Shown here: positions 1-23,669 of the stretch, piece after piece | How the letters are laid out: every line of letters starts with the position of its first letter | Numbering within the stretch: the stretch's first letter is position 1 | NCBI RefSeq assembly: GCF_004137855.1 | Contig: NZ_QBKB01000002.1 | Span: 615,327 to 679,326, forward strand | DNA length: 64,000 nucleotides | Direction: 5' to 3' | Source: Methanohalophilus profundi | GTDB lineage: Archaea > Halobacteriota > Methanosarcinia > Methanosarcinales > Methanosarcinaceae | The notes under the pieces: model-generated | Told to the model about the DNA's origin: nothing | The model's database searches: none | Seen by the model: only the letters and a program-made list of their open reading frames with translations | Program-made: the position numbers and the translations under genes

Positions 1-542
<542 letters not shown>

Positions 543-630: not shown

Positions 631-1830
631 TCATTTCACTACGTTGAGATTGAATTTTCCTTTGAGGCTATCCACCTTGTCAAGTTGTTCCCATGGGAAA
701 ATATTCCTGCCAAAATGACCATAAGAAGATGCCTGCCTGTATGACCAACCTTTAGGATGCAGTAAATTCAGATCTTCTATCAAGGCTGCCGGTCTGAAAT
801 CAAATATTTCACCGGATTCAAGTACATCCTGAATTTCCTGGTCTTCTATTACACCTGTACCATAGGTATCAACATTGATACTGAGAGGCTTTGAGACACC
901 AATAGCATAAGCTACCTGGATTTCACATTTATCGGCAAGACCTGCTGCAACTATGTTTTTGGCGACATATCTTGCATAGTATGCTGCTGAACGGTCAACC
1001 TTGGAAGGATCTTTACCCGAGAAAGCTCCCCCACCATGGCTGCCTACTCCTCCATAGGTATCCACGATGATCTTACGTCCGGTAAGTCCTGCATCTGCAT
1101 AGGGACCTCCTAGAACGAATCCTCCTGTTGGGTTTATGTAATACTCGGTATCTGACCTCAACATGCCGGTTGGCTCAAGGACTTCATTGATAAATCCTAC
1201 CATGTCATTACGAACTGTTTCAAGTGGGATGTCGTCAGTCTGCTGTGATATAACTACAGCTGTTATGTGGTCAGGTTTTCCATTTACATATTTCACTGAG
1301 ACCTGTGATTTGGCATCCGGTCTTAAGTAGGACACCCTACCTTCCTGACGGATAGAGTCCAGGTACCGGAGTAGCCTGTGACTAAACGCAATTGGAGCAG
1401 GCATGTACTCATCTGTTTCATTGGTAGCATAACCAAACATCATACCCTGGTCCCCTGCACCCTGCTCTTCATATAACCCTGTACCCTCGGTAACTCCCAT
1501 AGATATGTCAGGGGATTGTTCATGGATTTTTGATATGTATTCAAAGGATTTGTCCCAGAAAAGAAGGTCCTTATGATCATACCCTATATCACGAATAACT
1601 TCACGTGCTATATTCTCTGTATCAATCTGTTCCATACCTTTACAGGTAATTTCACCTGCATTTACCACAAGGTCATGGGCTACAAGTGTTTCACATGCCA
1701 CACGACTGTCAGAATCAGCTTCCAGACATGCATCCAGAACTGCATCAGATACCTGATCACATATCTTATCTGGATGTCCTGCACCGACCGCTTCTGAAGT
1801 AAATACGTGGTCATATTTGAGTTTACTCAT
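631..1830 (-). CDS. metK: S-adenosylmethionine synthetase, bacterial type
   Basis: Makes SAM from methionine and ATP. It is about 399 residues, the usual length of the bacterial family, with the N-terminal [19 protein letters not shown]-site signature, [12 protein letters not shown] in the middle and [19 protein letters not shown] towards the C-terminus. Most archaea instead carry the unrelated-looking archaeal MAT, so this gene was probably acquired from bacteria, as reported for some methanogens (inference). I chose the ATG at 1830 because GGAG lies seven to eight bases upstream; a GTG six bases earlier is the alternative. Its leader holds four tandem hairpin repeats. ahcY follows and a SAH/MTA deaminase gene lies upstream. 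Confidence 0.96.
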
Positions 1831-1855
1831 TTTCACACTCCTGTTTTATCTTAAA

Positions 1856-1953
1856 GGTCCGATTGAACGGATACGCTAGAGGTCCGATTGAACGGATACG
1901 TTATAAGGTCCGATTGAACGGATACGTTAAAGGCCCGGATGAACGGACATACA
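1856..1953 (-). repeat. Four tandem ~25-base repeats in the metK leader
   Basis: Three near-identical units start at 1856, 1881 and 1907, each beginning GGTCCGATTGAACGGATACG. A degenerate fourth starts at 1932 (GGCCCGGATGAACGGACAT). On the transcribed (minus) strand each unit can fold as a small hairpin, TCCG-TTCAAT-CGGA. They sit immediately upstream of the metK ribosome binding site. A TATA-like sequence near 2020-2035 on the minus strand would place the start upstream of all four, so they would be in the mRNA leader. Function unknown; a regulatory leader is an inference. Confidence 0.8.
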
Positions 1954-2318
1954 TTTGGATCTGAATTCGCAATCAAATGTCAAGAATGGATAATTCCACA
2001 CTGAAACATTCCTATAACATAATATAGTGGACATTTCTGGAATCAATGATAATCATTGATTACCACGAACATACCCTTCCACTATAATCGTAACTGATTG
2101 CCATCACATAATACGCCATACTATATATGTGTTTTCAAATTAAAGGATTTCAAATTATTTTTACAGTATATAAGAAAGTAAATATATATTCCATTTCAAA
2201 AATAATAAATCAAACCTACTATTATGGCTTTCTGGCCAAACATTACAAATGTATTTTGAAGGATTTTCATGAATGTATCTACAGATAGCCACCATTAAAA
2301 TCTATGTCGTGTCCAAAA
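1954..2318. other. AT-rich intergenic region, metK promoter side
   Basis: No credible gene. It contains the probable metK promoter: read on the minus strand, CACTATATTATG near 2022-2033 resembles an archaeal TATA box. The rest is AT-rich sequence downstream of the amidohydrolase gene, with nothing else I can identify. Confidence 0.5.
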
Positions 2319-22285: not shown

Positions 22286-23669
22286 TTAGCCTGTGATTTC
22301 CCTGAATCTGTCACAGCAATTGATATTGACATCCAGAAGTTTCTCAATATTCATCTTGGATGCGAACGGATGTAAGTACACCAATATCAAGTTCCTCACG
22401 GATTTCCCTCATGACATATTCGTCACCCAGGTCAATTGCTTCAACACCGAGTTTCCTGGCAACATAGTCCTTGGCTTCATTTATGCGCATGTTCTCGGAG
22501 AACTCCATTCTTGCAACAAGGTCACCTGCTGCACGCATACCTGTAAGACCGGATGCCATAATGTGTGAGATTGGCATACCGACTGGGTCGCCAACTCCTA
22601 TCTAAACACCATCTACACCTGCAACTTCTACCATTGCCTTGCTGGCACGGGTTACTGCATCGATTGGTGGAGTCTCGAACATTGGGATACCGCCGACACC
22701 CATACCCATATTTACATGGCAGGGAATGTTTGAAGCTGAAACAGTTGCTTTGGTGAAAGTTACTGAACGAGCAAGGTTCCATGCGGAGGATTTGCTGGTG
22801 TTGGTGTTGCAGACCGGACCGAACACATTTGCACCGGCTTCCTCTGCAAGAGGTACCTGCTCATGTGGCCAGAGGCCTGCAAGAACATTACCTTCGAACT
22901 CAAGTTCGCCGTGCATACCAAGAGTACATTCTCCGGCCATTCCTGCTTCGATGTAGATATCGGGGAATTCTTCCCTGAGCGCCTTGATAGAATAAAGGGA
23001 AGCATAAAAATCACCATCTCCAGCTGCACCGATAGTATCAAAGTTGACACCGTCACAGCCTACTTTCTGCAGGTGCTGCATGATCCAGGTCATGTCACGG
23101 GTTGCATGGTCACCGGCATGCTCGATGGATTCACGGGCCTCATTGATCTTGAAAGCCTTCAGGAGGTCACCAGGGTTTTCGAATGGACCATCTGGTGTAT
23201 AATAGAGACCCAGGTTTGGCATTGCACCATAGAGAAGGGGGATAGTCATGTTTTCCTGACAGACTTCCATAGCCTGCTGTTCCTGAGCAATGACCGGTTT
23301 GACTGGTTTAAAACTGTAATCGATATGACCCAGTTCCATTGTGTCAGCACCAAAGCCTCTCTCGTGCATCATACAGCCAGTAAGACGACTTGCAGGAATT
23401 CCGACACCACTGTTACCCTGATCACCATCGATCCTGAGGGTACCAATGTCGTGGGTAACCGGCACTTGCATACCTGGTTCGACACTTACAATGCGGTTGG
23501 AATCCATAATGATATCTGCGAGTTTGTCAAGTTCATCCCCGGAAAGTTCAGGAATGTCACCAAGGTCTGCTGCATCTGCACTACCTTCACGGAGGTCTGC
23601 AATGATCTGCTCCCTGGTCATGGAGATACGCTCGCCATCTCCCATTCTTAAGATATATTCATTTGCCAT
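22286..23669 (-). CDS. mtbB: Dimethylamine:corrinoid methyltransferase MtbB with pyrrolysine; 3'-end lesion
   Basis: Moves a methyl group from dimethylamine to the corrinoid protein MtbC. Residues 1-355 match MtbB ([62 protein letters not shown]). Codon 356 is TAG (22604-22602), the pyrrolysine position, and the frame goes on with [17 protein letters not shown] to GVLTSV. There the frame breaks near 22362-22368. The expected family end, [15 protein letters not shown] to the TAA at 22286, is in another frame, and by comparison with the remembered family a short segment seems to be missing. The gene may be damaged or the sequence wrong. Confidence 0.93.
22602..22604 (-). other. Pyrrolysine (amber) codon of mtbB
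   Basis: TAG on the minus strand between GVDGV and IGVGDP. This is the known pyrrolysine site context of dimethylamine methyltransferases and directly shows that the organism decodes UAG as pyrrolysine. Confidence 0.92.

Follow-up and report, generated by a model that had tools for sequence, protein, structure and literature searches.

Background

In the TRAP-controlled trp leader and in the CsrA/RsmA-controlled leaders of bacteria, several short and near-identical RNA sites located in the 5' leader, near the ribosome-binding site, are read by one multivalent protein. Leaders of metK or ahcY genes can also carry SAM and SAH riboswitches, whose families are collected in Rfam. At the DNA level, the NrpR operators of methanogens (GGAA-N6-TTCC) are dyads made of 4-bp half sites separated by a 6-bp gap, and they precede many genes (PMC2723118).

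Glycine betaine is a main organic salt protectant synthesised by methanogens, and the switching on of its synthesis is known at the level of the enzymes, not of the genes. The corresponding cluster of M. portucalensis, sams-sahh-gsmt-sdmt, was described by Lai and Lai in 2011 (PMC3176816). Its gsmt and sdmt genes are cotranscribed and their transcript falls when betaine is added; heat and cold, as well as betaine, elicit a response of the betaine cluster of Methanohalophilus, and the GSMT enzyme is itself activated by potassium (PMC3176816). An extra promoter was predicted before gsmt. The promoter elements treated in that study were those before sahh, gsmt and sdmt, and sams was cloned in part only, its leader lying outside the study (PMC3176816). 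We analysed this leader in a stretch of 64,000 nucleotides of Methanohalophilus DNA, hereafter called the window, following a preliminary description made from the sequence alone.

An array of small hairpins upstream of metK

In the 64-kb window, Tandem Repeats Finder reported two tandem repeats only. The one with the higher score lies at 1851-1947 and comprises 3.8 copies of a 25-base unit; no comparable array was present elsewhere in the window. The 17-mer GTCCGATTGAACGGATA of the plus strand occurs exactly at 1857, 1882 and 1908, with no other site in the window at up to 3 mismatches. Three such matches were reached in 0 of 100 shuffles, so that the array is not expected by chance. The fourth unit, at 1934-1947, has diverged from these three. 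The units are 25-26 bases long and lie directly upstream of the metK ribosome-binding site, their hairpins spanning 1858-1947 on the minus strand with steps of 25, 26 and 25. Copy 1 (1934-1947, minus strand; TCCGTTCATCCGGG) is transcribed first, reads TCCG-TTCATC-CGGG on the metK strand and has an additional G-C pair at its base. Copies 2 (1909-1922), 3 (1883-1896) and 4 (1858-1871), all on the minus strand, share the sequence TCCGTTCAATCGGA, organised as TCCG-TTCAAT-CGGA; copy 4 is the nearest to the start codon and ends 27 nt before the metK ATG.

Folded alone, each hairpin forms a stem of 4 or 5 bp with a loop of 6 nt, at -3.5 to -6.1 kcal/mol, and the loops are predicted as unpaired at 0.87-1.0. 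The 130-nt end of the leader did not fold better than its dinucleotide shuffles (z +0.56), and the evidence for structure is therefore comparative and not energetic. The four near-identical hairpin units of the preliminary description were thus borne out by Tandem Repeats Finder, by the shuffles and by the folding of single units.

Other elements of the metK leader

As had also been proposed, the array is placed between a probable promoter and the metK ribosome-binding site. The probable TATA box AACACATATATA (2122-2133, minus strand) is kept in 9/9 of the metK leaders compared below, and the Shine-Dalgarno region CAGGAGTGTG (1834-1843, minus strand) is kept in the leader alignment. Using TATA spacing, for which a TATA-to-start distance of 19-22 nt was measured in Methanolobus psychrophilus (PMC5378194), a transcription start was predicted near 2101. 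The leader would thus be about 270 nt long, and the array would follow this start at a distance of about 150-240 nt; UTRs of more than 150 nt are common in M. psychrophilus (PMC5378194).

Just upstream of the array, the leader alignment revealed a conserved segment, TTGATTGCGAATTCA (1962-1976, minus strand), which is near-invariant in Methanohalophilus and is complementary, apart from a bulge, to the hairpin loop (GAUUG..AA versus UUCAAUC). The stem-loop P1 (2023-2086, minus strand), also upstream of the array, is made of 8-bp arms (2079-2086 and 2023-2030) and an inner hairpin. Across seven genomes, 96% of its cells are paired, with no two-sided change in those seven sequences. A covariance model of P1 matched the same seven leaders only, among 112 genomes of the family, and did not recognise P1 in the two genomes having a single hairpin. 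A possible open reading frame of 9 codons is located inside P1 (2043-2072, minus strand), behind a GGTGG-like ribosome site, and extends to 30 codons in two relatives. Its coding is not supported: we rejected a conserved leader peptide (MFVVINDYH and variants), its substitutions mostly altering residues and its stop not being conserved. Likewise discarded was the idea that the UUCA loop pairs with a UGAA preceding the start codon, which the window's own leader allows and L016, L017 and L128 do not.

At the gathering score, the leader matched no Rfam family, those of SAM and SAH riboswitches included, and relaxing the threshold to E-values up to 5 yielded two snoRNA chance matches only. Consistently, the preliminary description had seen no likeness to a known SAM or SAH riboswitch.

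The metK gene heads a glycine betaine operon

The metK gene (631-1830, minus strand; TIGR01034; PF00438/PF02772/PF02773) encodes a bacterial-type SAM synthetase and is the first gene of the betaine operon. It is followed by ahcY, whose 5' part lies in the window (1-525, minus strand) and whose 468 codons continue outside (locus L145). At the same locus, downstream of ahcY and outside the window, we found gsmt (NF051855, 488 bits, passing the cut-off of 350), sdmt (NF041675, 489 bits, under the cut-off of 550 yet aligned over the full length of the model) and a PfkB-family kinase gene, which may encode an adenosine kinase. The metK-ahcY-gsmt-sdmt genes are the published glycine betaine cluster of M. 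portucalensis, with the same gene order, a 468-codon ahcY and a 278-codon sdmt (PMC3176816). Their close spacing suggests that metK, ahcY, gsmt and sdmt form one transcript. In Methanohalophilus, the betaine operon is followed by a second ahcY, which belongs to another subfamily (415 aa; L145:5999-7246, minus strand).

The genome also carries a separate archaeal SAM synthetase gene (PF01941), and the bacterial-type metK is therefore probably dedicated to betaine production. This bears on the earlier guess of a leader that binds a protein or senses a SAM-cycle metabolite: the guess is still plausible, but its SAM-cycle framing was incomplete, metK heading a glycine betaine operon. Given this operon and the separate SAM synthetase, osmotic state or betaine would be a likelier signal than the housekeeping SAM level. 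No obvious candidate for a regulator adjoins the operon in the four neighbourhoods inspected. Elsewhere in the window, a PYLIS_2 pyrrolysine insertion element was detected at 22505-22604 (minus strand), as expected for a methylamine-using methanogen.

Distribution and copy number of the hairpins

A bacterial-type metK with at least 87% identity was identified in six Methanohalophilus genomes, in one genome of another genus (G078) and in two genomes of a further genus (G005 and G019). The metK of G078 has the same neighbours (L147) and was probably acquired by transfer. The hairpin is present in 9/9 of these metK leaders, in 4, 6, 6, 8, 5, 4, 4, 1 and 1 copies. The six Methanohalophilus genomes and G078 exhibit arrays whose copy number varies from 4 to 8 across these seven genomes, as had been anticipated, and G005 and G019 a single copy at the same place. 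The ancestral state was probably one hairpin beside the ribosome-binding site, from which slippage would have produced the 4-8 copies of Methanohalophilus. At L016 and L017, the sequence ACG-TTCTAA-CGT stands 21-22 nt before the single hairpin and may represent one more unit, degenerate and altered in its stem.

A tandem pattern search over 393 genomes of the phylum recovered the motif in 7, each time at metK. Of the six Methanohalophilus genomes searched for the looser core CCGTTCANNCGG, five have it in the metK leader only; the sixth has in addition one stray match inside a gene. The other single-hairpin matches whose sequence was read fall almost all inside genes; with no site outside the operon worth following, a genome-wide regulon was rejected. 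The copies are not scattered in the genome as those of a dispersed (REP/MITE-like) repeat would be, and viral contigs and plasmids gave no match. Absence from relatives, or scattering in the genome, had been named in advance as the outcome that would speak against the finding; it survived this search of related genomes, the array being confined to metK leaders.

The leader, the bacterial-type metK and gsmt co-occur in 8 genomes. Among the 9 genomes with this metK, 8 have gsmt; none was found in G019, a fragmented assembly in which the contig ends downstream of metK. Two Methanohalophilus genomes, G049 and G065, are without bacterial metK, gsmt and leader alike, and in G049 the sole match to the single-hairpin pattern falls inside a gene. 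In G005, a second and solitary gsmt lies beside a transposase-like gene, without a hairpin leader (L156).

Close bacterial relatives of the metK gene (Desulfocarbo, Kiritimatiellae, Spirochaetia) were rejected as donors of the leader, as the region upstream of their metK lacks a hairpin array of this kind. Two Kiritimatiellae genomes exhibit a hairpin upstream of metK (L020:4900-4960 and L021:3610-3670) whose arms differ yet are self-complementary (AAATTATG/CATAATTT and AAGTATGC/GCATACTT) and which is followed in both cases by the identical string TTTGCGGGGACGGAGTCT. These hairpins have no match in Rfam and are possibly an unlisted metK leader RNA.

Conservation of the hairpin

Over 39 copies, the hairpin UCCG-UUCAnY-CGGR either does not vary or varies with wobble pairing preserved. 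Among the 37 array copies, 10 of the 14 columns are invariant (T1, C3, G4, T5, T6, C7, A8, C11, G12 and G13) and C2 varies once; variation is otherwise found at positions 9, 10 and 14 and in the spacer. The distance from the end of the last hairpin to the ATG is exactly 27 nt in 7/7 arrays; in the two leaders with one copy, it amounts to 30-32 nt. Between the window's own leader and those of G005 and G019, the hairpin keeps 13/14 bases, against an identity of 57-58% at the four-fold sites of metK. The chance of keeping 13/14 hairpin bases at that four-fold-site rate is about 0.005.

Within the four core pairs, all substitutions keep the pairing of the mRNA strand through G-U (U-A to U-G, C-G to U-G), with counts among distinct units of 17 U-A and 4 U-G for the one pair and of 20 C-G and 1 U-G for the other; these changes are few and one-sided. 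The fifth, outermost pair is G-C in the first copies, U-A in G005 and G019, which makes a two-sided change, and A-C in most internal copies. The stem covariation put forward in the preliminary description as a check thus turned out to be weak, consisting mostly of G-U changes and one two-sided change at the outermost pair. The antisense strand closes the fifth pair by G-U and has a mean fold of -5.1 kcal/mol versus -4.6 kcal/mol for the sense strand, but antisense folding fails in some copies and sense folding never does. In 10/37 copies, A14 is replaced by G, which breaks the DNA symmetry and retains the RNA pair. This tolerance, together with the invariance of TTCA on one side of the dyad, argues against a symmetric DNA operator, and these comparisons favour, short of proof, an action as RNA. 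A T-loop reading of the loop (tRNA-like UUCRANY) was discarded, the loop having 6 nt and its fifth base not being conserved.

Interpretation of the array

The explanation that we prefer, with a probability of about 0.42, is that the leader array is a multi-site platform for a cooperatively bound regulator, most likely an RNA-binding protein, tuning the betaine operon. The repeats would act in cis, as RNA, within the 5' leader (about 270 nt) of the metK-ahcY-gsmt-sdmt-kinase operon of Methanohalophilus. Each unit would form a small hairpin exposing its UUCA loop, and the row of hairpins, whose spacing from the metK ribosome-binding site is fixed, would be occupied cooperatively by the regulator. 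Once bound, the latter would control ribosome loading on metK or the lifetime of the operon mRNA, so as to match betaine production to the osmotic state. The identical hairpins, their exposed invariant loop, their arrangement in a row and their fixed distance to the ribosome-binding site are best explained by such binding to the leader RNA. Several exposed copies of the motif near the ribosome-binding site are also what is expected of a multivalent RNA-protein leader, the transcription start being a predicted one. As betaine has been published to repress the operon, the bound state may be the repressed one. Against the platform, the motif is found on no second target, whereas more than one would usually be expected of a regulon controlled by an RNA-binding protein. 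More tentatively, we would see here an archaeal control of translation or mRNA stability: the row of UUCA hairpins would be read by an RNA-binding regulator of its own, or directly by the osmolyte and ionic state, and the number of hairpins would serve as an evolving dial of the osmotic response.

The TCCG-N6-CGGA dyads could instead bind a dimeric transcription factor cooperatively as DNA, downstream of the promoter, and thereby block transcription or slow it down, in the manner of NrpR at its own operators. Their layout is that of the NrpR operator (PMC2723118), and betaine control of gsmt-sdmt was seen at the transcript level (PMC3176816). We nevertheless consider this unlikely, given the distance of about 150-240 nt that separates the array from the predicted start upstream of it, a 25-bp step that is not a whole number of helical turns, and the A14-to-G changes described above. 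Moreover, an operator should have constrained, symmetric half sites and a free centre; here TTCA is invariant on one side of the dyad only, and variation affects the rest of the centre as well as the final A. An operator would also be expected at further promoters or at the gene of the regulator itself, but the motif is confined to the metK leader, with no second copy near other genes of the genome. A structural role is less probable still: hairpins without a dedicated regulator would protect the mRNA or hold the ribosome-binding site open, and copy number would merely tune expression. The fixed spacing to the Shine-Dalgarno sequence agrees with such a role, as does the contribution of long 5' UTRs to mRNA stability in a related methanogen (PMC5378194), but a purely structural element needs no loop as conserved as its stem, which UUCA is.

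Direct sensing by the leader, P1 and hairpins together responding to a small molecule, potassium, ionic strength or temperature in the absence of protein, is quite improbable. The limitation of the element to one operon and the presence of P1 as a second conserved stem-loop would suit a sensor, and so would the published responses to heat, cold and betaine and the activation of GSMT by potassium (PMC3176816). The hairpins are however tiny and identical, no conserved junction or pseudoknot was seen, the leader has no Rfam match, and P1 lacks two-sided changes in its seven sequences and is unrecognised by its model in the two single-copy genomes. Lastly, we regard as likewise improbable that the array is a functionless product of chance tandem duplication. 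Slippage would account for the 4-8 copies and for the spacer variants that neighbouring copies have in common, but not for a hairpin that survives at the same place in a genus where the four-fold sites of metK are near saturation, nor for 10/14 core columns staying invariant in 37 copies while the spacer varies; and the window contains no comparable array elsewhere.

Comparison with known systems

An element confined to one operon, kept across genera and variable in copy number provides a concrete place to test the control of betaine synthesis, and the series of 1, 4, 5, 6 and 8 copies is a ready-made natural experiment. No mention of a metK-leader array was found in the literature searched, and it is probably an undescribed control element. 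It differs from the SAM and SAH riboswitches, which also occur in metK or ahcY leaders, no family matching it even at a relaxed threshold. With the NrpR operators it shares the dyad, the 4-bp half sites, the 6-bp gap and a methanogen host; in contrast, its half sites are TCCG and CGGA and not GGAA and TTCC, its central bases are fixed and asymmetric, and it precedes one gene where NrpR sites precede many (PMC2723118).

In organisation the array resembles the TRAP and CsrA leaders, which also consist of short near-identical sites repeated in the 5' leader near the ribosome-binding site. The array differs from them by presenting UUCA in a 6-nt loop, where they present GAG/UAG triplets or GGA loops (the loop is UUCAnY, without GGA, in 39/39 copies) and by its archaeal host; its own regulator is a putative one. 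It would work like known multi-site RNA leaders. If a protein does recognise the hairpins, the array would be an archaeal equivalent, rare of its kind, of the TRAP and CsrA targets and similar leaders.
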